In this document: positions 25,729-43,700 of the stretch, piece after piece | How the letters are laid out: every line of letters starts with the position of its first letter | How positions within the stretch are numbered: the stretch's first letter is position 1 | NCBI GenBank assembly: GCA_028820695.1 | Contig: JAPPIB010000042.1 | Span: forward strand, 1 to 64,000 | DNA length: 64,000 bases | From: Acidiferrobacterales bacterium | GTDB taxonomy: Bacteria; Pseudomonadota; Gammaproteobacteria; Arenicellales; JAJDZL01 | Reading direction: 5' to 3' | The notes under the pieces: model-generated | The model's input: only the letters and a program-made list of their open reading frames with translations | The model's database searches: none | What the model was told of the DNA's origin: nothing | Program-made: the position numbers and the translations under genes

Positions 25729-26172
25729 TCATGGGTTACATCCATCAAAACCGTCGGCTTGCATTTTCGCCTCATAGGGGCCGGCAATCTCGCCACCCGC
25801 TTTAAGCTGGGGTTTGATTGATGTCCAGTCGTCGACACGAATCTTCATCAGCCATCCGTCACCGTATGGCGCTGAATTGGCAAGACCTGGAGAGGTGCTG
25901 ATCACGTCGTTTACTTCCACAACCTCACCACCGGTGAGCAGTTTGGCCGGGCCGACCCACTTGCCGGATTCCACAGTCGCGCAACTTCGCCCCGGTTGCA
26001 CCTTGCGACCGGCTCGCTTGGGTGTGATTGCGACAATTTGACCAGCCATCGCAGACGCTACAGAAGTCATTCCCACAGTGATCGTATCGTCGTCATTTTC
26101 GCGATACCAGATGTTGTTTTCTACATCATAGAGAAGTTCATCCGGAAAATCACATCCGCGTACTGTAATCAT
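25729..26172 (-). CDS. lbpA: Lipoate-binding protein of the sHdr system (GcvH-like)
   Basis: A 147-residue GcvH-fold protein (NNIWYRENDDDTITVGMTSV, GQIVAITPKRAGRKVQPG, then CATVESGKWVGPAKLLTGGE and VVEVNDVIS). The lysine in ESGKW is at the lipoylation position. In known sHdr systems a dedicated lipoate-binding protein carries sulfur intermediates through the Hdr-like complex and is not a glycine-cleavage protein. Its start overlaps the upstream gene by 4 bp. No lipoate ligase or LipS/LipT genes are in the window. Confidence 0.9.
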   Translation of the reverse strand: MITVRGCDFPDELLYDVENNIWYRENDDDTITVGMTSVASAMAGQIVAITPKRAGRKVQPGRSCATVESGKWVGPAKLLTGGEVVEVNDVISTSPGLANSAPYGDGWLMKIRVDDWTSIKPQLKAGGEIAGPYEAKMQADGFDGCNP

Positions 26173-26591
26173 TGATCAGTTACCTCACTGTGTCGGGTTC
26201 TGAGCGGTTTGGACGAACAGCAAAACTCTCCCAGTTGCTGAACTTCCAGTTTGCCGCGTACAAAATAGAGTAAATGCATTGCAACCATTGCCATCATACT
26301 TGTTTGGGAGACTTCATTCTTCATGCGGTATAGGTTAACCTGATACACAAGTTCCCTGCAAGTGTCCCTGCATGCAAGAAACGAAGGATCGTTTATTGCA
26401 CCCTGTCTGTGCAATGCGAGCAATCTATACCTCTCATGCTTGGCAGATGTTGGTTCAAGCTTGTGACTTACGAGCCAATTCTCCAAAATCTGCTCGCCGA
26501 GTCTCAGCAGATGTTCAGCTGGGTCGGGCACAGTTTGTGGATTGTCGCGTACCGACTTGATGTTGCTCTCGAGTTCAGAAAATTCAATCAT
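26169..26591 (-). CDS. Hypothetical protein within the sHdr cluster
   Basis: A 140-residue soluble, helix-rich protein. It begins MIEFSELESNIKSVRDNPQ and includes LVSHKLEPTSAKHERYRLLA, FLACRDTCRELVYQVNLYRM and MMAMVAMHLLYFVRGKLEVQ. It overlaps hdrB2 by 4 bp and lbpA by 4 bp, so it is translationally coupled to both. I know no function. Cysteines in CRDTC and CCSS could bind a cofactor or persulfide, but no standard motif is present. An assembly or sulfur-transfer role is inferred from position only. Confidence 0.65.
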   Translation of the reverse strand: MIEFSELESNIKSVRDNPQTVPDPAEHLLRLGEQILENWLVSHKLEPTSAKHERYRLLALHRQGAINDPSFLACRDTCRELVYQVNLYRMKNEVSQTSMMAMVAMHLLYFVRGKLEVQQLGEFCCSSKPLRTRHSEVTDQ

Positions 26592-27541
26592 GCCAATCCC
26601 TTCTCGCGAAGAAGACCAAGCGAATCCGAAATATTTTCCTGAATCCCCAATTTACGCGGCGATAAACCGAGTGCCAGACCGAGTAGTTGGGTGAAATACA
26701 GCATGACCGGTTTGGTGGCAATGTTCAGGGTTTCTTCGGCGCGTATCTGGTGCATTTCAAGTCCGGTATGGCAGGTCGGACACTCTGTCGCAATCACATC
26801 CGCACCACAGGTTTCAGCCGCTTGCAGGATGTTGAGGACAAGACGTGTTGATGTGTCACTGTCTGACAAGGTGTGAGCACCGCCGCAACATGCTGTCTTC
26901 AGGGGGAAATCTATAACTTGAGCTCCAGCAGCTCGTAGCAGATCGTCCATAAAATGCGGGTCGGTTGTTGACTCACTGCCTTCACCCTGATCCTTTTCCG
27001 GGAAAATGTGACGTGGTCGGGTGTACATGCAACCGTAATAATTGACGATTTTCAGGCCATCCAGTGAATTTTTCACTTGGCGGGCGAGATTCTCTTCTCC
27101 GATTGCGTGTTTGATCCAGTCGAGCGCATGTATCGTTTCCACGTCTCCAGCGGAGTACTCCGGAACTTTCGACTTTCTGGACAACTTTTCGAGAACCGAC
27201 CTGGTCTGTTCTCGATGAGTCACATCGTGCTCGGCTTTCTTAAGGTTGTGATAGCAGCCGTTGCACGGTGCCATCACTACATCGAGTCCCATTTTGTGTT
27301 TGGCAATCGCCATGTTGCGAACGGACAAAAAGTTCTGAATCTCAGGATCGATGTTCTTGACTTCCATCGCTCCACAACAATTCCAATCCTTGATCTCGAC
27401 CAGGTCCAGACCGAGTTTCTTTCCAACCTGCTTGGTAGAGCGGTTGTACGCGTGTCCAGTACCTTCCAACGCGCAGCCAGGATAATAGCCAACCCGTTGC
27501 AAATCAGTTCTCAGCTGTTCGTTCTTAGCCATGCATGTCAC
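26588..27541 (-). CDS. hdrB2: sHdrB2, CCG-domain subunit
   Basis: A 317-residue HdrB-like subunit with two complete CCG domains. The first is YYPGCALEGTG, then DWNCCGAMEV and APCNGCYHN; the second is YYGCMYTRP, then TACCGGAHT and ECPTCHTGLE. In methanogen HdrB these hold noncubane [4Fe-4S] clusters that split a disulfide; in sulfur oxidisers the complex works oxidatively on LbpA-bound sulfur. An inner ATG at 27532 is an alternative start. It follows hdrC2 directly. Confidence 0.92.
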   Translation of the reverse strand: MTCMAKNEQLRTDLQRVGYYPGCALEGTGHAYNRSTKQVGKKLGLDLVEIKDWNCCGAMEVKNIDPEIQNFLSVRNMAIAKHKMGLDVVMAPCNGCYHNLKKAEHDVTHREQTRSVLEKLSRKSKVPEYSAGDVETIHALDWIKHAIGEENLARQVKNSLDGLKIVNYYGCMYTRPRHIFPEKDQGEGSESTTDPHFMDDLLRAAGAQVIDFPLKTACCGGAHTLSDSDTSTRLVLNILQAAETCGADVIATECPTCHTGLEMHQIRAEETLNIATKPVMLYFTQLLGLALGLSPRKLGIQENISDSLGLLREKGLA

Positions 27542-27542
27542 T

Positions 27543-28280
27543 TCATTGTTCAGTGCGATTCAACACCTTGTTTCGTTCTCCGATCCGTTCATTCAGATAT
27601 TCATCGATTGCACTCGATGAAGCTTTCCAGTTCTTGGTTCTGGGGCGAAGCAAAGTGGAAATGCCCATTTTGATCATGAGTGTGATCGGCAGTCCCCGAA
27701 GCAGGCCTTTTGCCAATCGAACCAACCAATTCTGAAACAGCGGTTGCGAAGTACGGTTGAAATAGTTTCGTATCACGCGTCCTTCCTCGATCTTGCCGGT
27801 TTCCAGGACCTGCGAATAGAATTCCTCGTCAAAATGCATTGAATTTGATTTCGGTGTATGCCCTTTGTGCTCGAGCCAATGGCTCAACGCCTTCATGACT
27901 CCTTCAGGCTCAACGTCACGCGGGCAGACATGTGTGCACTTGTGGCATGAAACACATTGCCAGATGATGTCCTTGTCTCTGACGAGTTCCTGTTCCATAC
28001 CCAGGCGCGCAAGATATATCCAGTAGCGAGGGTTGAAGTCGGGATTGACCGCATTGACCGTGCATGAGTTGGTACATGCACCACATTGCCAGCAACGATG
28101 GATCCGAGAGCCGCCCGGAAATGCCGCAATTTCTTCTTCAAGGTCCTCGTTGTAATCATTGACGACACGCGATTCAATAAACGTACTCCATTGTCCCGAT
28201 ACATCGACACCGTCGATATCAAGCTTCTCGTGCTCCCGAAGATTCTCCGGACGAATCAGTGACTTCTCATGAATGGGCAT
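27543..28280 (-). CDS. hdrC2: sHdrC2, iron-sulfur subunit
   Basis: A 245-residue HdrC-like protein carrying two four-cysteine motifs, CWQCGACTNSCTV (about residues 64-76) and CVSCHKCTHVCPR (about 109-121). The first lacks the usual proline after its last Cys. The C-terminal half (WLVRLAKGLLRGLPITLMIK and a basic tail) is amphipathic. Partner of HdrB2, whose gene follows with 1 bp between. Confidence 0.92.
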   Translation of the reverse strand: MPIHEKSLIRPENLREHEKLDIDGVDVSGQWSTFIESRVVNDYNEDLEEEIAAFPGGSRIHRCWQCGACTNSCTVNAVNPDFNPRYWIYLARLGMEQELVRDKDIIWQCVSCHKCTHVCPRDVEPEGVMKALSHWLEHKGHTPKSNSMHFDEEFYSQVLETGKIEEGRVIRNYFNRTSQPLFQNWLVRLAKGLLRGLPITLMIKMGISTLLRPRTKNWKASSSAIDEYLNERIGERNKVLNRTEQ

Positions 28281-28298: not shown

Positions 28299-29186
28299 TC
28301 AATGCGTGGAAGCGTCGATCAGTTCGGAGAGTCGATGCCGGGACCCATCTGCCAGCACCATATGTGTCAGACCATTGCCTGTCAGTGCAGCATCCAGACC
28401 CAGCATTCTCAGTGCGTAGTCGAAAGGAGTGCCCGACTGACTGAACTCGGTTTTCAGGAAACTGCCACCCTGGGATCCGATGTACTGGCTGTACACCCAG
28501 GCGAACAGTATGTCCATGATGAAATTGTGATTCGCGTAGATCCCTGCGTTTTCCAGAAAACCGTGCAGTTCCCGTCTCAATTCCAGATGTGTACGAACTC
28601 CATCGGAAATTTCGAGTCTGTTGTTCTTCATCTCAGCGAACCAGACTTCTCTCAGGACGCCGGTATTTGACTCTCTGTCCCACACCCACCGGGTCATCAG
28701 TGGGAACTCGTCTGGACTTCGATAATGCACAATCTCTGCCGCGAGGTCCTGAATCCAACGATCCTTCGCATCGAGTGCCAGTTCCGCTTTCAGTGTCTGA
28801 ATTCGACTGTCAGCGTTTTCCAACGTAATTCCATTGAGCAGTGTCTTTATCGTATCGCGCAGAAATTCAAATCCTCTGGCTTGAAGAAGCAACCGGATAC
28901 GTCTTCGTACGGTCGGCATGAATGCACATACATCAAAAAATTCTGTATCGGTCATCATGTCTGCGTCATCCGAAAAAATTCTCTGAAACAACAGGGATTT
29001 TCCGCGGACTCCCTCAACGATCGTTTCGATACCGCCGAGCTTGTCGCCGCATTCAATCATTGAATCGAACGCGGTATGTAAAAACGCACCATCCAAGTGC
29101 AAAACGGGTGTGCTGTGCATGATCTGTGATTCGGGAGTGAATTCCTGTAATCTGTCAGAAACGAAGTCGCTGTACCCGATGAACAA
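28299..29186 (-). CDS. Conserved hypothetical of the sHdr cluster
   Basis: A 295-residue soluble protein lying between hdrA and hdrC2, the position always filled by a conserved hypothetical gene in sHdr operons. It includes TPVLHLDGAFLHTAFDSMIE, LQARGFEFLRDTIKTLLNGI, MTRWVWDRESNTGVLREVWF and ILFAWVYSQYIGSQGGSFLK. I see no cofactor motif. Family knowledge ties it to the complex, but its activity is unknown. Confidence 0.75.
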   Translation of the reverse strand: MFIGYSDFVSDRLQEFTPESQIMHSTPVLHLDGAFLHTAFDSMIECGDKLGGIETIVEGVRGKSLLFQRIFSDDADMMTDTEFFDVCAFMPTVRRRIRLLLQARGFEFLRDTIKTLLNGITLENADSRIQTLKAELALDAKDRWIQDLAAEIVHYRSPDEFPLMTRWVWDRESNTGVLREVWFAEMKNNRLEISDGVRTHLELRRELHGFLENAGIYANHNFIMDILFAWVYSQYIGSQGGSFLKTEFSQSGTPFDYALRMLGLDAALTGNGLTHMVLADGSRHRLSELIDASTH

Positions 29187-29215: not shown

Positions 29216-30253
29216 TCAGGCAGCACGATTGATATTGCCCAACGCGGCCATCGCCGCTGCCTGGCCCTGCGCAATGGAATCATCGATCGTCTCCGGGCCG
29301 ATTGCAGCGCCGGCAACAAAGATTCCCGGTCTGGACGTTCCGGCAATCGAGTCGTATGAAGGCTGTTTCCTGATATGTCCGTGCGGTTCAAGCTCAACAC
29401 CAAAAGTGGCCGCAATATTGGGATTGTCGACGTTCGGATCCATTCCGATTGCGTGTACGACCAGATCAAACGGAATTGAAATCGGGCGTTTCACCAAGGT
29501 ATCCTCCCCCTTGAGCAAAACCCTGTTTCCGTCAAAGGTAACTTCCGCGATCCGCGCCTTGATGTATTTGACCTTGAACTCCTCCTGACTGCGCCAGTAG
29601 AACTGGCCTTCGTAAAGTCCGAATGTTCGGATATCCATGTAATAGATGTAAACGCTGCAGTCCGGCAGTTCCTCGCGGATTTCCATAGCCAGATTGGCTG
29701 ATACAGTGCAACAGATTTTTGAGCACCATTCACGGCCGATCTGGCGATCTCGGGAGCCCACACACAAAAGGATCGCAACGCGATCCGGCTTGCGGTTATC
29801 GGAAGGGCAGCGTACGCCATGGCCCGAGGATATCATCTGTTCCACCTGCGTAGTCGTTACGACGTCCGGGTGCGACCCGAATCCCCACTCAGGTTTGTTG
29901 ACCGAGTCAAAGTGCGTAAACCCGGTCGCGAGAATCACCGATGATGCCTCTACTTCCGAACCGTCAGACAGTTGTGCAGTAAACTGGCCGGCATCGCCAT
30001 CAAGGCGGGTTACAGTTGTCGAAGTCTTGACGTCGATTGCTGGCTTGCTTTCAACTGCGACGACCATTCTTCCAATGGCATCCTTCGCCCACTCGCCCGA
30101 TGGAACAAGGCGTGCGTAACCTGAGAGTATAGGCGCGCCGCCGAGGACTGATTCTCGTTCAACGAGGGTGGCGCAGTGTCCTGCCTCAGCCAGGGATCGA
30201 GCGGCGGACAAGCCTGCTGGACCACCGCCGACGATCAGGGTCGTAGCGGTCAC
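29216..30253 (-). CDS. hdrA: sHdrA, FAD subunit
   Basis: A 345-residue short HdrA. The FAD-binding GGGPAGLSAARSLAEAG is at the N-terminus, ATGFTHFDSV lies mid-protein and the second nucleotide segment GIFVAGAAIGPETIDDSIAQ at the C-terminus. A cysteine cluster CVGSRDRQIGREWCSKICC (about residues 178-196) binds the [4Fe-4S] of HdrA. It lacks the ferredoxin inserts of methanogen HdrA, as expected for the sulfur-oxidising type. Overlaps hdrB1 by 4 bp. Confidence 0.92.
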   Translation of the reverse strand: MTATTLIVGGGPAGLSAARSLAEAGHCATLVERESVLGGAPILSGYARLVPSGEWAKDAIGRMVVAVESKPAIDVKTSTTVTRLDGDAGQFTAQLSDGSEVEASSVILATGFTHFDSVNKPEWGFGSHPDVVTTTQVEQMISSGHGVRCPSDNRKPDRVAILLCVGSRDRQIGREWCSKICCTVSANLAMEIREELPDCSVYIYYMDIRTFGLYEGQFYWRSQEEFKVKYIKARIAEVTFDGNRVLLKGEDTLVKRPISIPFDLVVHAIGMDPNVDNPNIAATFGVELEPHGHIRKQPSYDSIAGTSRPGIFVAGAAIGPETIDDSIAQGQAAAMAALGNINRAA

Positions 30254-31617
30254 GCGCGGGCCTCGAACCCGGGACCGGAAGTGATTGCCCGACGCGGATC
30301 GTACAGCGTCTCAAAATTTCCTGCTTCCACGTCGACCAGATAGCTCTCAAATTGATTCTTGGCTAACTCCCAGTCAATACCGAGTTTATCCAGCAGAGGC
30401 TCAAATGCTGAGGCGTGCCAATGCAGCTGGGCAATTTTGTACGGATGGGCGCCACAGAGCACAGCTGCAAGCTGGCAGTCTGCCAGAATCGGCATTTCGT
30501 AGTGTTTGTCAACAGCTTTGCCAATCCATTGATTCTTGTCCAGTGTGGTGATACAGCCGGTGTCGTGCCCCACCATCACATCTGCCCGGGCCTCTTCGAC
30601 GGCAACCTTGATTTTTCGATCGATTGCGAAAGAGCGGGTGAATTCCCGTTCTGAAATGATGTGACGGAAACCGAATCCGCAGCAATCGTACCAAGTGGAG
30701 TAATCGATGACATTTGCCCCCAGTGCCTGAACCAGTCCTGTCGATACCGCTACGCGATTTCCATCCAGAACGTCATCATCATATATGACATCTTCCGGGA
30801 CCATTTTGTAGACATGGCATGCCGGATGGATAACGGCACGAATTTCCGATGCATCAATAGTCTGTCTCTCACTGATCTGATGCCGCATCACGTGCAGCCA
30901 TTCCGAATAGTGCACGATCTCTTCTGGAATCAGGATCTTGCCGTCAACCAGGCGCCCGATTTTTGCGAGAATTTTCTTTACCTGTTCCCGCAGTTCAGCC
31001 GAACGGAGCAGAAACTGCCTCATTTCCTTGTAGTTTCCAAACGATGTTCCGCAGTGAACCAACGGATAGTAGTGCGCGTAGTCCAACCCTTCTGCGCGGG
31101 ATGCTACGTACGCCTGATGGAAATTTCTCAGAAAAACCGCTGCCAGGGAAACTACGTTCCCGATTCCCGAACCATGGTAGTTCCAGGCGGTACAGGAAGT
31201 CTGGTCGGTTTCGTCGAGATACTCCGTTCCAAGCTCGTTCATGAGCCAAAGCAACGACGTGGGGTAACCGGGAATATTACCGCATTGTCCACAGGACTTG
31301 TGATGCCATAGACGATTCGTTGGAATTTTCTTATCCCAGCCATAGAGTGTCTTTGTCATTACCGGCTTGTGTCCATCGTTGACCCGATGTACCACGATTT
31401 CCCCATCCTTTTCCAACTGCCACATAATGTCACGGACATCTTCGACTTGCTCGCGGGATGTGAGCATTGCCCGCTTGTCTATTTTCGCTTCCACCCATTG
31501 CGTGGCCGCCTGCGCCTGCTGCGGATCCAGGTTCGAATCCTTCCACTCCGCACCGTGTCCGGTAAATCTGTGCTCAGAATTCTGATTTCCAAACGGAACC
31601 ATAACGCTCATTTCCAA
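30250..31617 (-). CDS. hdrB1: sHdrB1, CCG-domain subunit
   Basis: A 455-residue HdrB-like subunit, longer than HdrB2. The N-terminal CCG domain is modified (HKSCGQCGNIPG, DQTSCTAWNYHG, PLVHCGTSFGN). The second domain shows VIHPACHVYKM, STWYDCCGFGFRHIISE and VGHDTGCITTLDKN, where the last cysteine pair is reduced to one Cys. This asymmetry against HdrB2 matches the sHdr pattern of two non-identical B subunits. 31 bp after hdrC1. Confidence 0.9.
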   Translation of the reverse strand: MEMSVMVPFGNQNSEHRFTGHGAEWKDSNLDPQQAQAATQWVEAKIDKRAMLTSREQVEDVRDIMWQLEKDGEIVVHRVNDGHKPVMTKTLYGWDKKIPTNRLWHHKSCGQCGNIPGYPTSLLWLMNELGTEYLDETDQTSCTAWNYHGSGIGNVVSLAAVFLRNFHQAYVASRAEGLDYAHYYPLVHCGTSFGNYKEMRQFLLRSAELREQVKKILAKIGRLVDGKILIPEEIVHYSEWLHVMRHQISERQTIDASEIRAVIHPACHVYKMVPEDVIYDDDVLDGNRVAVSTGLVQALGANVIDYSTWYDCCGFGFRHIISEREFTRSFAIDRKIKVAVEEARADVMVGHDTGCITTLDKNQWIGKAVDKHYEMPILADCQLAAVLCGAHPYKIAQLHWHASAFEPLLDKLGIDWELAKNQFESYLVDVEAGNFETLYDPRRAITSGPGFEARA

Positions 31618-31648: not shown

Positions 31649-32377
31649 TCAGCCATCATCCTGCTCATCCAGCCAGTCTTCGTATTCTTCGCGCTTCTCA
31701 TCCATGATATCTACAATGACGTCAAATAGATTTTCATCGATCGTTTCCAGCTGATCAAGGACGCCGGACTCTTCCCAGATTGTGTATAGCTCAATTGACG
31801 TCTTCAGATTGACTTCCCATGCGGTATCGATGGTATGCATGGTCGGCATCGGGACCGCTTTGCGCAGTACCTGCAAAGGGGCATCTATCTTGCTGATGTT
31901 GGGACCCCAGTCGGCGAAGTGGTCGGGTGTGATCATGTTGGGTGCCAGTTGATTCCCAGTCGAGATCAGCTTAAGCATCACGCGGGAGAACGGTCGAAGA
32001 ACATCCTTGGCGGACTGCATTCCGTGCTTGATTGAAACTTCCCGCAAGATGCTGACCAGACCGCCTGGAGAATTACCGAACGGACAGCGGGCGGCGCAGG
32101 TATAGCATTGCGCGCAGGCCCAGATTTTTTCCTGCATGGCATCATAGATTCCTTCGAGATTCTCAGTCCAGAGCAATTGCACAATTTCTCTGGGTGAGTA
32201 ATCGAAATAGTGTGCAGACGGGCAGGTGGCGGTGCAGATTCCGCAATTCAGACAGCCATGCAGTTCGTGGTCATAGAGCGGATGTTCACAGATATCCGAA
32301 AAAATCTCTTCCAACTGATCGCGGCCGATCTCATGTTCGGTCAGCGGATCACCGATTGTCATGGCTGCTGATGACAT
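31649..32377 (-). CDS. hdrC1: sHdrC1, iron-sulfur subunit
   Basis: About 242 residues with two [4Fe-4S] motifs, CLNCGICTATCPS and CAQCYTCAARCPF, followed by a long acidic C-terminus ending EEYEDWLDEQDDG. The frame is open to 32464, which would overlap dsrE by 79 bp. The ATG at 32377, 8 bp after the dsrE stop and preceded by GAGTGAG, is the sensible start (MSSAAMTIGDPL). It passes electrons between HdrA and HdrB1. Confidence 0.9.
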   Translation of the reverse strand: MSSAAMTIGDPLTEHEIGRDQLEEIFSDICEHPLYDHELHGCLNCGICTATCPSAHYFDYSPREIVQLLWTENLEGIYDAMQEKIWACAQCYTCAARCPFGNSPGGLVSILREVSIKHGMQSAKDVLRPFSRVMLKLISTGNQLAPNMITPDHFADWGPNISKIDAPLQVLRKAVPMPTMHTIDTAWEVNLKTSIELYTIWEESGVLDQLETIDENLFDVIVDIMDEKREEYEDWLDEQDDG

Positions 32378-32385
32378 TCGCTCAC

Positions 32386-32766
32386 TCAGTAACTGAGCAC
32401 CTTGGTTTCCTCTTCCTCCATCACGCGTTCGATGACGTAGGCACCACCTACAATACCCTCGCATTCCGGTATGAGGTCATCGGGCGTCATGTCAAAAAGA
32501 TCCAGATTCGGCGAGCAGCAGAAAAACTTGACGCCTGCCTCGTATGCATCCTGGATGAAGTTATAAACGGACTTGTCCGAGCCAGGTTTCACAAATATGG
32601 TCTCGGCGACGCCTTTTTTCATGAGTTTGCCGGCAGTGGCCGTGCAGATCACCTCCACCTCATACTCCATCGCTGCGGCCACTGACGCCTGAAAAATCGG
32701 CGCCCCCATCTCCTCTCCATTTGAGGGGTCGGAATTGACCATCATGATTACTAATTTTTCTGCCAT
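32386..32766 (-). CDS. dsrE3: DsrE-family sulfurtransferase (DsrE3-like)
   Basis: A 126-residue DsrE/F-fold protein (KLVIMMVNSDPSNGEEMGAP, ASVAAAMEYEVEVICTATAG, YEAGVKFFCCSPNLDLFDMT). The cysteine pair in FFCCSPN includes the conserved persulfide-carrying Cys. First gene of the sHdr transcription unit; it should exchange sulfane sulfur with TusA. A palindromic operator candidate lies 50 bp upstream. Confidence 0.88.
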   Translation of the reverse strand: MAEKLVIMMVNSDPSNGEEMGAPIFQASVAAAMEYEVEVICTATAGKLMKKGVAETIFVKPGSDKSVYNFIQDAYEAGVKFFCCSPNLDLFDMTPDDLIPECEGIVGGAYVIERVMEEEETKVLSY

Positions 32767-32816
32767 AGTATTTGTTTGATTCTCAGGTTGAGCACATGGA
32801 TTGAAACTTTATTTTA

Positions 32817-32840
32817 ATATATTAGAAATTTCTAATATAT
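32817..32840. promoter_or_regulatory. Perfect 24-bp palindrome, operator candidate for the sHdr operon
   Basis: Each half is ATATATTAGAAA and its exact complement, centred between 32828 and 32829, with no spacer or mismatch. It is 50 bp upstream of dsrE3 and 28 bp from the end of the GATase-like gene. ArsR-family persulfide-sensing repressors (BigR/SqrR/sHdrR type) bind AT-rich palindromes in front of sulfur-oxidation operons, so this is a good operator candidate. No such regulator gene is in the window. Confidence 0.65.
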
Positions 32841-32868
32841 CGCATTTTATTCAGCCCATCAGCGATCA

Positions 32869-33561
32869 TCAATTCATCCAACCGGTTATCTGAATCACGC
32901 CCGTCATGATACTGATGAGCGATTTCTCGATTTCAGGTTGGAGATTGCGTATGTTCTCCAAAATGTCGATATTTGCGACATCGAACGCTGGCATCTGTAC
33001 CATTGAGTCCTCAATCATCGCACTTTTCATGCCCGGGTGACCGATAAACCCCAGACAGTTGTCGGAAATCTGAAATAGAGCAGCTGTGTCATCGTCAAAT
33101 ACAGATAGTACGCGAGCGTCTTGCGCAATGACAGGGAAGTCTCGCATATAGGTGACAATCGGATACCTGACTGGGAGATGTCCATTAAGCGCGTCGTCGT
33201 CGACTCGTCGGGCAGTTTGCAGATCGAGTGTCAGTTCACGTGATTTGACCGTGCTGCCGGATGCGAGCGCCAGCAGTTGCGTACCGGTGCCGAAAGCCAG
33301 GATCGGGAGTTTTTCCGAAAGATAGTTCTCGATGATTTCAACCCGTTGCTCCAGCATCGGCAATTTTGGGTCGCTGACAGTCCCATATGGCGCGGCACCC
33401 AGTATGATCAAGCCGTCACTTGGAAGGCTCAGATTGTCAATCCATTTGTTGTCATGTGCCGGACGGATGTATCGAAACCGGATATTGCGCCCCTCAAGGT
33501 GATCCTCAACCAGGCCTAGATGTTCAGCATCGGTGTTCTGCAGAACTGAGATGGTTTTCAT
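32869..33561 (-). CDS. Class I glutamine-amidotransferase-like protein lacking the catalytic Cys
   Basis: A 230-residue protein with the GATase1 fold pattern: TISVLQNTDAEHLGLVEDHL, DGLIILGAAPYGTV, then ILAFGTGTQLLALASG where true amidotransferases have GxCxGxQ; the cysteine position is Gly/Thr here. CLGFIGHPGMKSAMIEDSM holds a His near the expected spot. It is probably not a glutaminase; it may bind a ligand or act on another substrate. It is co-directional with and upstream of the sHdr cluster, separated by the palindrome region, so it may be a separate unit. Confidence 0.65.
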   Translation of the reverse strand: MKTISVLQNTDAEHLGLVEDHLEGRNIRFRYIRPAHDNKWIDNLSLPSDGLIILGAAPYGTVSDPKLPMLEQRVEIIENYLSEKLPILAFGTGTQLLALASGSTVKSRELTLDLQTARRVDDDALNGHLPVRYPIVTYMRDFPVIAQDARVLSVFDDDTAALFQISDNCLGFIGHPGMKSAMIEDSMVQMPAFDVANIDILENIRNLQPEIEKSLISIMTGVIQITGWMN

Positions 33562-39069: not shown

Positions 39070-39377
39070 CGGATAACAGTGGATACAGTATGGACCGTTC
39101 TGTGAATTATAAGGTGAACCTGTACATGAATTGCGTTCTGGGATCACTGACTTGTTCCATAACGTCTCGACGGTACAATGCCTGGAGTTTACAGTCAGTC
39201 GGGCGCAATACATTCCCCGAATCAGCGACCGGTTCATGCCAATGTCAGTCTGCGCGTCAATTGGACGATGTTGGGAATGCGAAGTGAACTTTCTGATTCA
39301 GCACGGAGCAGATTTTTAATATACTATCGCACTTACCACAATTGATTCACTCAACTGAATGACGCGTGCATGAAATG

Positions 39378-39433: not shown

Positions 39434-39799
39434 ATGAAGAAAATTCTAATCAGTCTGATTTCACTCATTGCCATTGCGGTGGTTCCGGCACTGAGTTTCA
39501 GTCCGGTTTATGCCGATTCCATGCAAGACCTGATTGCGGAAGGTAAGGAACTGTCGTTCAACCGACAGAAAGGCAACTGTCTGTCGTGTCACATCATTGA
39601 GGACGGTCTGATGCCCGGCACCCATGGTCCGCCATTGATTTTCATGCAGAGACGGTTTCCTGACAAAGGGAAGCTCAGGGCTCGGATCTACGATCCGACT
39701 GCGGCCAATCCGAATACGATGATGCCGCCGTTCGGACTTCATGGGATATTGACGGACAGTGAAATCGACGCAATTACAGAGTATATCTTTACGTTATAA
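39434..39799 (+). CDS. soxX: SoxX, sulfur-oxidation c-type cytochrome
   Basis: A 121-residue periplasmic monoheme cytochrome c. Signal peptide about 1-27 (ISLIALIAIAV-like core ending VYADS). The heme motif is CLSCHIIEDG (about residues 55-59) and the axial methionine is probably in NTMMPPFGLHGIL. It pairs with SoxA to oxidatively join thiosulfate to SoxY. First gene of soxXYZAKB. Confidence 0.93.
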   Translation: MKKILISLISLIAIAVVPALSFSPVYADSMQDLIAEGKELSFNRQKGNCLSCHIIEDGLMPGTHGPPLIFMQRRFPDKGKLRARIYDPTAANPNTMMPPFGLHGILTDSEIDAITEYIFTL

Positions 39800-39812
39800 G
39801 AGAGGGATTCTG

Positions 39813-40289
39813 ATGAAAACGCTTGAAAAACAAAGACGCAAGGTGCTCAAAGGTGCTCTCGCAACCAGTCTGGTGGCACTTGCGGCATCTTGGGGCATGC
39901 TTGGCAGTCGTGCATTTGCTGCCCGACCCCAAATGGCATTCGATGCCGATGATCTCGGCGGTACGCTCAAGGCACTGTTCGGAGAAGATGCCATTGAGGA
40001 CAGTGGCGACATCATCGTCAAGGGGCCTGAAATCGCAGAAAACGGCGCGGTTGTTCCTATCAAGGTGACCGCCAAAATGAATGATGTGCAATCCATCGCC
40101 ATCCTCGTGCCGGAAAATCCCGCACCCATGGTGGCATCGTTTGACTTGGACGCGGGAATTGTTCCCGAAGTGTCGGTACGCATCAAGATGGGCAAGACAT
40201 CTGACGTGATAGCACTGGTGCGATCGAACGGAAAGGTCTATCGAGGCGCCAAGGAAGTCAAAGTAACCATCGGCGGTTGCGGCGGCTGA
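39813..40289 (+). CDS. soxY: SoxY, sulfur-carrier subunit
   Basis: 158 residues. A twin-arginine-like leader (MKTLEKQRRKVLKGALATS, then AASWGMLGSRAFA) precedes the immunoglobulin-like SoxY fold. The chain ends in GGCGG, the mobile C-terminal arm whose Cys carries the sulfur substrate. The ATG at 39813 has AGAGGG upstream; the open frame to 39759 overlaps soxX and is ignored. Works as a SoxYZ heterodimer. Confidence 0.95.
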   Translation: MKTLEKQRRKVLKGALATSLVALAASWGMLGSRAFAARPQMAFDADDLGGTLKALFGEDAIEDSGDIIVKGPEIAENGAVVPIKVTAKMNDVQSIAILVPENPAPMVASFDLDAGIVPEVSVRIKMGKTSDVIALVRSNGKVYRGAKEVKVTIGGCGG

Positions 40290-40313
40290 TCCGATACAGA
40301 GAGGTATTGAATC

Positions 40314-40625
40314 ATGACTATGAAATCAAAAGTTAAATTGACCAGCGAAGGCAGCGTGCATGTCAAATTGCTGATCAAGCATCCCATGGAAACCGGTCAG
40401 CGCAAGGACCGAAAGACCGGCGAACCGATACCTGCCCATTTCGTCGAGGTGGTTACCTGCGAATGGCAGGGTAAGGAGATGATCCGCGCACATTGGGGTC
40501 CGGCCATCTCTAAAAATCCGTATTTGTCATTCAAGATTATGGGACCACAGGCAGGTGATATGCTGACCTTGCGTTGGTTGGACAATCAAGGCGAGTCCGG
40601 CGAACAGCAGGCTCAGGTAAGCTGA
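40314..40625 (+). CDS. soxZ: SoxZ, sulfur-carrier partner subunit
   Basis: A 103-residue SoxZ with no signal peptide; it is exported with SoxY. Signature parts are VHVKLLIKHPMETGQRKDRK, AHFVEVVTCEWQGKEMIRAH and GPAISKNPYLSFKIMG. GAGAGGTATTG precedes the start. It follows soxY by 24 bp. Confidence 0.95.
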   Translation: MTMKSKVKLTSEGSVHVKLLIKHPMETGQRKDRKTGEPIPAHFVEVVTCEWQGKEMIRAHWGPAISKNPYLSFKIMGPQAGDMLTLRWLDNQGESGEQQAQVS

Positions 40626-40664
40626 CTGGTCTGCAACTAGAAATCGAATTTTGGAGAAAGCTCT

Positions 40665-41501
40665 ATGAAAAGATGTTTGCTATCCCTGTTGGCCATCACG
40701 CTGACGGCGGGAATGTCGTCATTTGTGCAGGCGGCTCCTGAAGAAGATCGGCTGGCATTCGAGAACTATTTTTTAACCAAGTTTCCGGATACACCCAAGG
40801 AAGACTTCGTCAACGGTATTTACTCAATCGATCCCGTCGCGCGCGATCAATGGATTGACCTTGAGGAATTTCCACCGTATGAACTGGCTCTTGAACTGGG
40901 ACAAACCCTCTTCGAAACGCCGTTCGCCAATGGCAAGACGTATGGCGACTGTTTCGAGAACGGTGGTATCGGAATCCGGCAGAATTACCCTTATTTTGAT
41001 ACCGAAGTGGGCCAGGTTGTGACAATTGAACTCGCAATCAATCAGTGTCGCGAGGCGAACGGTGAAAAACCACTCAAGTACAAGTCTGGACCCATTGCGG
41101 CGGTTTCTGCATATATGGCGTTCACGTCCAGAGGAAATACAATCAATGTGGTGATACCGGACGATCCGCGCGCGATTGCAGCCTATGAGGAAGGCAAGCA
41201 GTTTTACTACACCAAAAGAGGCCAGTTGAACTTTTCGTGCTCTGACTGTCATATCGGAGGTTCGGGCGGCTTCATTCGAACTGAAATGTTGAGCCCATCT
41301 CTGGGACATATCAGTCACTGGCCTGTTTACCGACTGAAGTGGGGGGCGATCGGTACCCTGCATCGTCGATTCAGTGGCTGCAATCAGCAGGTGCGGGCGA
41401 AAGCATTCAAGCCACAGGGTCAGGAGTATCGAAACCTGGAATATTTCCTGAGTTACATGAGTAACGGATTGACATTCAACGGACCGGGTGTCCGCCGCTG
41501 A
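40665..41501 (+). CDS. soxA: SoxA, sulfur-oxidation c-type cytochrome
   Basis: A 278-residue SoxA with signal peptide (about 1-23, ending FVQAAPE). It has one CxxCH heme motif, FSCSDCHIGGSGG (about residues 189-193), and the downstream cysteine in RRFSGCNQQVRAKAF, the likely persulfide heme ligand. The N-terminal heme motif of two-heme SoxA is absent; only a Cys (GDCFENGG) remains there. This matches the monoheme SoxA type usually accompanied by SoxK, which indeed follows. Confidence 0.93.
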   Translation: MKRCLLSLLAITLTAGMSSFVQAAPEEDRLAFENYFLTKFPDTPKEDFVNGIYSIDPVARDQWIDLEEFPPYELALELGQTLFETPFANGKTYGDCFENGGIGIRQNYPYFDTEVGQVVTIELAINQCREANGEKPLKYKSGPIAAVSAYMAFTSRGNTINVVIPDDPRAIAAYEEGKQFYYTKRGQLNFSCSDCHIGGSGGFIRTEMLSPSLGHISHWPVYRLKWGAIGTLHRRFSGCNQQVRAKAFKPQGQEYRNLEYFLSYMSNGLTFNGPGVRR

Positions 41502-41521
41502 ACCTGAGGGACGAAACGATA

Positions 41522-41836
41522 ATGAAAAAATTGCTTTTTATATTTGTTGCGACTATCGCACTGGCAACCGGGACAGCGGCAACTGCAGACCAAGCCAGTA
41601 TCGAACAGTTCAACATGGCATTTTCTGAAGCCAATGAACTGAGAAAAGCGGCTGGACAAGCGGCTCATGAGTGGCGGGATACCGCCAAACTTCTGAGGTC
41701 GGCCCAAGCTGCTGCGGAACAGGGAGATCTGGAAAAAGCGATGATGCTTGTCGCCGAAGCCAGGTTCCAAAGTGTAGCTGCAGTCGCTCAGGCTGAGCGC
41801 GAGCAACGCCTTTGGGAAGGCCGGGTTGTCAGGTAA
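41522..41836 (+). CDS. soxK: SoxK, SoxAX-binding protein
   Basis: A 104-residue exported helical protein: signal peptide about 1-22 (LLFIFVATIALATGTAATA) and a coiled-coil mature part (FNMAFSEANELRKAAGQAAH, LLRSAQAAAEQGDLEKAMML). Size, position between soxA and soxB and composition match SoxK/SAXB, which holds SoxAX together and raises activity in Chromatiales-type systems. Confidence 0.85.
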   Translation: MKKLLFIFVATIALATGTAATADQASIEQFNMAFSEANELRKAAGQAAHEWRDTAKLLRSAQAAAEQGDLEKAMMLVAEARFQSVAAVAQAEREQRLWEGRVVR

Positions 41837-41945
41837 CACATATACTGTTCCAGAGTCCTTACCAGGAGAAGTGATACCACCGGTCAACCTATCGCACCAC
41901 CTGCGACCGTGTCCCGGACGTGCGCCGGGAAGGAGGCAATAGATC

Positions 41946-43700
41946 GTGGATATGTGTCGTCGTGAATTCATCCAGGCGCTCGTTGCCGCGAGCGCTTGCG
42001 GTATTGTGCCTTCAATTTCGGCAGGCAGTTCGAGTCTATACGATTTCGCCCCCTTTGGCGATGTACGTCTGCTGCACATCACCGACACACATGCCCAGCT
42101 GAATCCGGTCTACTATCGGGAACCTCATGTCAATATCGGGTTAGGTGAAGCGCTCGGCCGCCCACCACACATCGTGGGGGATCGTTTCTTTGACTACTTC
42201 GCGATTGCGCCATCGACACCAAGCGCTTACGCGTTTGCCTATTCGAACTTCACGGAGCTGGCCGAAAAGTTCGGCAGGATCGGCGGATATGCCTATCTCA
42301 AAACCCTGATTGACCGGTTGCGACACGAATACGGTTCTGAGCGAACCTTGCTGCTTGATGGCGGGGACAGCTGGCAGGGCAGCGGCACCGCGCTGTGGAC
42401 GCGGGGCATGGAAATGGTGGAGGCGAGCAATCTTCTTGGTGTTGACATTGCGACCGGGCACTGGGAATTCACCTATACACCGCAAGAGATCCAGGCCAAT
42501 CTTCAGGCTCTCGCAGGAGACTTCGTCGCCCAGAATATTTTTCTGACCGAGGATGCACTGTTTGATGAGAAACCAGTCTTCGACGAGGATACCGGTCATG
42601 CCTTTGCGCCATATGTCATGAAGTCTCTTGGCACTCGCACGGTGGCGGTGATCGGGCAGGCGTTTCCCTACACTCCGATCGCCAACCCCAGACGAAACAT
42701 ACCGGACTGGACATTTGGCATCCGGGCTGAGGAACTGCAGGGTCTGGTCAATCATATCCGGGCAGCCGAACGGCCGGACGCTGTGATCTTGCTATCACAC
42801 AACGGCATGGATGTTGACCTGAAACTCGGCGAGGTCGTAACAGGTATCGATGCGGTTCTTGGCGGACATACTCACGATGCGGTGCCGGCGGCACTCGAGG
42901 TGCGAAACTCTCAGGGCACCACATTGGTCACCAACGCCGGGTCCAACGGAAAGTTCGTTGGCGTTCTCGATCTGAAATTTACTGACAAAGGTGTAAGCGA
43001 TTACCGGTATCGACTGTTACCTGTGTTTGGAAACTTCCTTGAGGCAGACGCTGGGATGGAGGAATTCATAGCGGGCTCGCGCGCGCCGTTTTCGTCAGTG
43101 CTCGATGAGAAGCTGGCGGTGACGGAGTCACTGCTGTTTCGTCGCGGCAATTTCAACGGTACGTTTGATGAGGTGATCTGTAATGCACTGCTTCACAATG
43201 GAGATGCCCAAATTGCCCTTTCGCCCGGATTTCGCTGGGGAACTTCCGTCATTCCAGGGCAGACAATCTCCATGGAGGACGTGCTGAGTCAGACTGCAAT
43301 GACTTATCCGGAAACCTATGTACGTGAAATGTCGGGAGAGACCCTGAAGCTGATTCTTGAGGATGTTGCGGACAACTCATTCAACTCCGACCCGTTTTAT
43401 CAGCAAGGTGGTGATATGGTGAGGACGCAGGGATTGACATACACACTCAACCCGGCCAACTCGATTGGGAAGCGAATTTCGCAAATGCGTCTCGACAATG
43501 GAGATTTGATCGAAGCTGACAAGAATTACATGGTGGCCGGCTGGGCAACTGTCGGCGAAGTTTCACCGGGTCCGCCGATTTGGGAATTGGTTGCTGATTA
43601 TCTGCGCGCACAAGGTGTCGTCAGAGTTGATCGCGTCAATCAACCGCGACTCGTAATAGGAGCCGATAACCCCGGTGTCGGCATGTGGCCCGCAACCTGA
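41946..43700 (+). CDS. soxB: SoxB, thiosulfohydrolase
   Basis: A 584-residue dimanganese hydrolase that removes sulfonate from SoxY-bound thiosulfate. N-terminal twin-arginine signal (MCRREFIQALVAASACGI). Metal-site motifs are DTHAQLNP, LLDGGDSWQGSGTALWTRG, TGHWEFTY, LLSHNGMD and VLGGHTHDAVP. AAGGAGG at 41930-41936 fits the GTG at 41946 better than the ATG six bp later. The C-terminal domain is complete. Confidence 0.96.
   Translation: MDMCRREFIQALVAASACGIVPSISAGSSSLYDFAPFGDVRLLHITDTHAQLNPVYYREPHVNIGLGEALGRPPHIVGDRFFDYFAIAPSTPSAYAFAYSNFTELAEKFGRIGGYAYLKTLIDRLRHEYGSERTLLLDGGDSWQGSGTALWTRGMEMVEASNLLGVDIATGHWEFTYTPQEIQANLQALAGDFVAQNIFLTEDALFDEKPVFDEDTGHAFAPYVMKSLGTRTVAVIGQAFPYTPIANPRRNIPDWTFGIRAEELQGLVNHIRAAERPDAVILLSHNGMDVDLKLGEVVTGIDAVLGGHTHDAVPAALEVRNSQGTTLVTNAGSNGKFVGVLDLKFTDKGVSDYRYRLLPVFGNFLEADAGMEEFIAGSRAPFSSVLDEKLAVTESLLFRRGNFNGTFDEVICNALLHNGDAQIALSPGFRWGTSVIPGQTISMEDVLSQTAMTYPETYVREMSGETLKLILEDVADNSFNSDPFYQQGGDMVRTQGLTYTLNPANSIGKRISQMRLDNGDLIEADKNYMVAGWATVGEVSPGPPIWELVADYLRAQGVVRVDRVNQPRLVIGADNPGVGMWPAT

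Follow-up and report, generated by a model that had tools for sequence, protein, structure and literature searches.

The window, by which we mean the whole 64,000-nucleotide stretch analysed here, carries on its minus strand nine ORFs which, named by domain and order, read dsrE3, hdrC1, hdrB1, hdrA, a hypothetical gene, hdrC2, hdrB2, a second hypothetical gene and lbpA. The order of all nine is identical in five congeneric genomes (G001 to G005; the window's own genome is G000). A perfect palindrome lies ahead of the first gene, and the features of the locus are as follows.

32869..33561, minus strand: 230-aa ORF upstream of the palindrome, glutamine amidotransferase-like by eye, no Pfam match
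32817..32840, no strand assigned: perfect 24-bp palindrome, the proposed dsrE3-shdr-lbpA operator, its core kept in 5/5 congeners
32819..32838, no strand assigned: conserved core ATATTAG-N6-CTAATAT, 7-base half-sites identical in 6/6 genomes
32811..32816, minus strand: putative -10 box, TAAAAT, 2 bp past the core
32386..32766, minus strand: dsrE3, encoding a DsrE-family protein (PF13686, E 1.3e-9) and opening the operon; the name is that of the first-pass annotation and fits
31649..32464, minus strand: hdrC1-type ferredoxin-like protein (Fer4 models); the real start probably lies further downstream
30250..31617, minus strand: hdrB1-type CCG-domain protein (PF02754)
29216..30253, minus strand: hdrA-type flavoprotein (PF07992)
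28299..29186, minus strand: shdr-cluster hypothetical protein, no Pfam match, position common to 6/6 genomes
27543..28280, minus strand: hdrC2-type ferredoxin-like protein (Fer4 models)
26588..27541, minus strand: hdrB2-type CCG-domain protein (PF02754, E 1.1e-24)
26169..26591, minus strand: cluster hypothetical protein, no Pfam match, position common to 6/6 genomes
25729..26172, minus strand: lbpA, GcvH-like lipoate-binding protein, last gene of the operon (PF01597, E 1.7e-30)

The palindrome was first described as having no regulator gene adjacent to it, and this holds: its neighbors are dsrE3 and the 230-aa ORF, which gives no Pfam match at E 0.001. The latter is found no more than about 10 kb from dsrE3 in 5/6 genomes, the sixth contig ending earlier, and is not in every congener the gene adjoining the site. 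The sox genes of the window's genome are found at 39434-43700, about 7 kb from dsrE3, and 1833-2056 of the window matches a domain of group II introns (Rfam RF02005, 153 bits).

The palindrome and its conservation ahead of dsrE3

The element at 32817-32840, ATATATTAGAAATTTCTAATATAT, is indeed, as claimed at first sight, a perfect palindrome of 12+12 bp without a gap, and the ATG of dsrE3 (32766, minus strand) lies 50 bp beyond its end. The next longest gap-free perfect palindrome in the window has arms of 8+8 bp, and the 2.77-Mb assembly (97.6% complete) holds no further copy of the element even when 3 mismatches are allowed. That it is a chance product of an AT-rich gap, an idea to which the local G+C content of 29% lends some color, has negligible probability: at this composition the count expected in the 102-bp gap is about 3e-5 (about 0.004 over the whole window), and an arm of 12 bp is reached in 0/60 order-2 Markov copies of the window (an arm of 11 bp in 2/60), in keeping with the initial judgment that it is very unlikely by chance. 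The chance reading is, moreover, already refuted by the conservation of the core in all five congeners, and the palindrome is a real, conserved upstream element.

Close homologs of dsrE3 (84-92% identity) occur in 5/59 other genomes, namely the congeners, with weak matches in three more. In each of the five, ATATTAG-N6-CTAATAT stands ahead of dsrE3 without a mismatch; the central six bases of the core vary among the six genomes, and the flanks have diverged. BLASTN of the 300-bp upstream regions (E 0.01) aligns the window with three of the congeners over no more than 23-31 nt that take in the motif; between the window and the remaining two it returns no match. A wider comparison takes in 29 dsrE3 loci, 19 at 75-92% identity (the five congeners included) and 10 at 33-46%. 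The shorter form ATTAG-N6-CTAAT is exact in 10 of the 19 closer loci, beginning 51-104 bp ahead of the start codon; going by the taxa of the database records, these are the five congeners, one gammaproteobacterium (L064) and four Alphaproteobacteria (L066, L068, L075 and L076). Among the other closer loci, L069 and L070 carry the motif with one mismatch in ten, L071-L073 keep a single good half-site, and L065, L067, L074 and L077 have no convincing motif at the dsrE3 promoter. The exact form is found in 0/10 of the more distant homologs. Matches to hdrB1 and hdrA are present in 18/19 of the close loci, the exception being L074, which ends soon after dsrE3.

A TANAAT hexamer starts 1-2 bp after the core in 6/6 genomes, with no good -35 box at the proper spacing from it. 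An alternative TAAAAT at 32844-32849, just before the palindrome and with TTGATG 17 bp upstream, occurs at the rate expected by chance. The transcript of the palindrome folds better than its shuffles (-19.4 kcal/mol, z -3.07), as would befit an element acting in RNA, either as a terminator or as a hairpin behind the upstream ORF. This is nonetheless very improbable, and we reject it: any perfect palindrome folds by construction, 32700-33000 contains 0 terminator-like sites, and the stem is AT-rich and lacks a U-run, whereas an intrinsic terminator needs a G+C-rich stem followed by one. Further, the outer half-site letters are themselves conserved, beyond mere pairing, and the nearest long upstream ORFs in G002 and G003 are transcribed away from the site, so that no transcript should end there and hence no terminator is to be expected.

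The candidate regulator and its relatives

In the window's genome, a PF01022 search (E 0.001) recovers a single arsR gene; it lies on contig C10, unlinked to dsrE3, in line with the earlier prediction that the repressor must be encoded elsewhere. Its 110-aa product has a PF01022 winged helix (E 8.6e-13) with the recognition helix QSSTSQHL. In 4/5 congeners (G001, G002, G003 and G005) the arsR gene adjoins soxX, facing away from it at a distance of about 250-580 bp, which identifies it as the SoxR ortholog; in G000 and G004 it is not beside soxX. The same search gives one or two ArsR genes in each congener, and in L043 and L044 (G003 C39 and G005 C23) a second ArsR-family gene, distinct from SoxR, is seen. 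As to gene order, the sox cluster lies near shdr and apart from soxR in G000 and G004 (L053), and soxX adjoins soxR in the other four congeners (L039-L042), pointing to a rearrangement inside the genus.

The six orthologous ArsR proteins share 50 invariant columns, which include C32 and C98 (6/6). The top PDB match is a chain of entries 6o8k-6o8o (E 9e-22), which we take to be SqrR, followed by HlyU, BigR, NolR and YgaV. C32 and C98 align with the cysteines of the 6o8l chain, the trait tested being a Cys in alpha-2 plus a Cys near the C-terminus. The search for two-cysteine ArsR genes proposed in the first-pass annotation thus ends in one gene, which keeps both SqrR-type cysteines.

The companion proposal, to scan the genome for further copies of the half-site, fared less well: apart from the dsrE3 site it gave one weak extra match, with 1 mismatch in 14, and the counts at 2 mismatches are like those of the control. 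This AT-rich match lies on C10 (26898-26917; L037:8899), between genes in a moderately conserved region some 4 kb away from soxR, itself unlinked. As an autoregulatory site we leave it as weak, its likewise AT-rich counterpart in G004 (L038:8705) having 2 mismatches within an alignable stretch much wider than the motif. The motif is also missing, with best scores of 4-6 mismatches of 14, from eight regions where SoxR should act: the 400 bp upstream of soxR and the 250 bp upstream of soxX, each in G000 and G004, and the intervals between soxR and soxX in the remaining four congeners. Nor is an ArsR gene found in any of the 29 dsrE3 loci (tblastn 1e-6; flanks up to 6 kb, some shorter).

The best studied parallel comes from Hyphomicrobium denitrificans, where SoxR and sHdrR, both two-Cys ArsR repressors, gel-shift the fragment before dsrE3C. 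According to the consulted text of PMC10451225, the dsrE3C upstream fragment to which SoxR binds is 173 bp long, shdr transcription goes up when soxR is lost, and polysulfide keeps SoxR from binding, the last being shown on fragments other than that of dsrE3C; a truncated sHdrR binds the same four fragments as SoxR (consulted text of PMC12423496). The text consulted of these two papers gives no operator sequence for either repressor. The two systems differ in that, as far as this text goes, H. denitrificans encodes a pair of repressors within its shdr-sox region, whereas the window's genome has one, which is unlinked.

The operators of other relatives can be set beside the palindrome. An AT-rich palindromic element overlapping the -10 region, the BigR box, is known from Xylella and Agrobacterium, and its regulator is of the same type as SqrR and SoxR. 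The Rhodobacter capsulatus SqrR operator, as quoted in the part of PMC9774250 seen, is ATTC-N8-GAAT. The palindrome reads ATTA-N8-TAAT and hence does not match it exactly; its inverted half-sites lie in the same ATT-N10-AAT frame as those of the operator so quoted, SqrR being also the closest PDB regulator, and the difference is one base per half-site, the fourth being C in SqrR and A in the palindrome. A perfect ATTC-N8-GAAT is present at 39345-39360 of the window, about 73 bp before soxX; we set it aside, as the corresponding regions of the 5 other genomes have no exact copy and the window holds two copies vs about one expected by chance. The HlyU operator was likewise discarded as a motif match, with 2 mismatches of 10.

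In Escherichia coli, ygaVP is preceded by two tandem TTTAG-N6-CTTAA dyads, 16 bp apart, which start at -39 and -23 relative to the ATG. They lie in the stretch around the transcription start where, by the portion of PMC9774250 seen, YgaV protects DNA (near the start, at -28). Each dyad is 3/10 bases off ATTAG-N6-CTAAT, and the arrangement is tandem rather than single. NolR is an ArsR-type relative of the window's regulator (PDB 4omy, E 1.3e-16) for which we know of no role in sulfur metabolism. Its consensus, (A/T)TTAG-N9-A(T/A) in the part of PMC12445080 available to us, is fitted by the palindrome on both strands but is, as given there, not symmetric. NolR Gln56 at the start of alpha-4, which reads A/T according to the portion of PMC8960804 seen, seems by eye to match the invariant Gln52 of the window's regulator.

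Motif and regulator across Gammaproteobacteria

The class sample comprises 369 gammaproteobacterial genomes, the window's own included. Exact ATATTAG-N6-CTAATAT is found at 144 sites in 93 of these vs 5 sites for the reversed pattern, a control that is equally palindromic and of equal base composition. With a profile built from the six ArsR proteins, 238/369 genomes give a match (E <=1e-15), and the regulator is present in 90/93 site-bearing vs 148/276 site-free genomes (Fisher 1e-16, a value that includes kinship and composition). Base composition and common descent may account for part of this genome-level association; the reversed-pattern control speaks against composition as the sole cause.

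A sharper link appears at the promoters of related arsR genes themselves. The set consists of 29 loci besides the window's own, which are the best matches from the 238 genomes and not a random draw, and contains near duplicates (L118/L119 and L141/L145). A simple pattern recognizes both cysteines in 26/29 of the proteins, "two-Cys" being inexact as a description of every one. When the region from -250 to +20 is scanned with 14 half-site positions scored, 15 of these 29 best-match promoters bear the motif at <=2 mismatches, 8 at <=1 and 2 exactly; exact sites are found at the arsR start in two genomes, G067 and G126. No other spacing between 0 and 12 is seen in more than 2/29 of the best-match promoters, making the link essentially N6-specific. 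The 139 other permutations of the half-site score 0.2 promoters on average, the best reaching 9 (AATTTAG, one neighbor swap away) and the next 3, and 100 shuffles of the promoters give a mean of 0.07 motif-bearing promoters and a maximum of 1. The motif also tracks the recognition helix: it accompanies 15/22 proteins with QSxxSQHL vs 0/7 with other helices (p 0.002, over the 29 best-match loci). At <=2 mismatches it is missing from 14/29 of the best-match promoters, 7 of these with the QSxxSQHL helix.

L118 and L119 each have the exact motif twice in tandem, at -28 and -12. More generally, L118, L119, L122, L125, L129 and E. coli K-12 ygaV (L167) have 2-3 tandem N6 dyads, 15-16 bp apart and in some cases mismatched. 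Set against the single dyad at the dsrE3 promoters of the genus, this tandem arrangement at arsR-type promoters suggests cooperative autoregulation. No ArsR gene lies beside the exact gammaproteobacterial sites, either in 29 site loci (<=3 kb) or in 20 wider regions. With no motif at soxR or soxX, no linked ArsR gene and 14 of the 29 promoters free of the motif, the assignment of the regulator rests on class-wide evidence rather than on local linkage.

The absence of the motif near the genus's own soxR and soxX, together with a genome-wide regulator search that covered PF01022 alone, leaves some room for another dimeric regulator, e.g., a MarR-, TetR- or Lrp-type protein, to use the palindrome as its operator and control shdr, with the ArsR protein uninvolved. 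We consider this unlikely, since the same N6 motif marks related arsR promoters and tracks the recognition-helix class, and such an ArsR is present in all but three of the 93 site-bearing gammaproteobacterial genomes.

The proposed operator and a possible class-wide code

We propose, with a probability of about 0.82, that the palindrome is a SoxR-type sulfane-sulfur-responsive operator of the dsrE3-shdrC1B1A-hyp-C2B2-hyp-lbpA operon, bound by the single PF01022 ArsR protein, the SoxR ortholog. The observed basis is the palindrome, its conservation, the nearby TANAAT, the single two-Cys regulator and the motif at the promoters of related regulators; binding by ArsR, repression and release by sulfane sulfur we infer from the motif in combination with the literature on homologs. 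The original suggestion of an ArsR-type persulfide-responsive operator is in this sense supported, by the one unlinked two-Cys ArsR gene, by the 5/5 congeners and by the 15/29 best-match arsR promoters, with binding, repression and persulfide release as its inferred part. The operator of a SoxR/SqrR-type repressor is a known kind of element, of which this site is very probably a further case.

Mechanistically, a dimer of this ArsR protein, of the SqrR/BigR type, with two cysteines and encoded on another contig, would bind ATTAG-N6-CTAAT directly before the TANAAT box and so block RNA polymerase. A rise in sulfane sulfur (persulfide or polysulfide, e.g., derived from thiosulfate) would then lead to a sulfur bridge between its two cysteines, upon which the bridged dimer would leave the DNA and the cytoplasmic sulfur-oxidation operon would be made. 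The papers on sHdr regulation that we found concern one alphaproteobacterium and, in the text consulted, name no operator sequence. For a gammaproteobacterial lineage known through metagenome assemblies, in which the repressor gene is not adjacent to its target operon, the present comparison proposes a concrete operator together with its regulator and a rule for the recognition helix.

We lean slightly toward a broader view, in which Gamma- and Alphaproteobacteria have a sulfane-sulfur operator code in common, ATTAG-N6-CTAAT, whose readers are two-Cys ArsR proteins carrying the QSxxSQHL helix and which ties together shdr, sox, rhodanese, YgaP-like, sulfate-permease and TolC-HlyD-RND efflux operons. 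Among the papers listed by a search of open full texts, we saw no statement of this motif for the two-Cys ArsR class, which is weak evidence of absence. If the code is real, reactive-sulfur regulons would be predictable from DNA alone, even where the regulator is unlinked, and the TolC-HlyD-RND efflux operons would be unexpected members. The motif would then allow the prediction, in many genomes, of a reactive-sulfur regulon that takes in RND efflux pumps; this class-wide code and its RND-efflux targets are the more interesting part of the result.

The neighbors of the sites were examined for 29 of the 144 exact sites and in some wider regions, and the sulfur and efflux genes found downstream are, as a list, suggestive only. 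Many exact gammaproteobacterial sites precede genes with no evident sulfur role, e.g., inorganic-pyrophosphatase-like by eye (L090/L091), and that of L097 lies inside a gene, pyruvate-kinase-like by eye. Exact sites stand before outer-membrane efflux OEP genes in L088, L089 and L093; in the wider regions of L147 and L149 the OEP gene is followed by AcrB-type RND genes, and in L089 the OEP gene alone is seen. HlyD-RND pairs follow exact sites in L111/L153 and L156. These TolC-, HlyD- and AcrB-type RND genes could possibly encode efflux pumps under the control of reactive sulfur. Other exact sites precede rhodanese genes (L096 and L108, with a match just under the Pfam cut-off in L151), YgaP-like membrane proteins (L098 and L100) and a SulP permease (L163). 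In L158 an exact site lies 220 bp ahead of the gene for a soxX-like cytochrome, which shares its cluster with genes resembling soxA and soxB.
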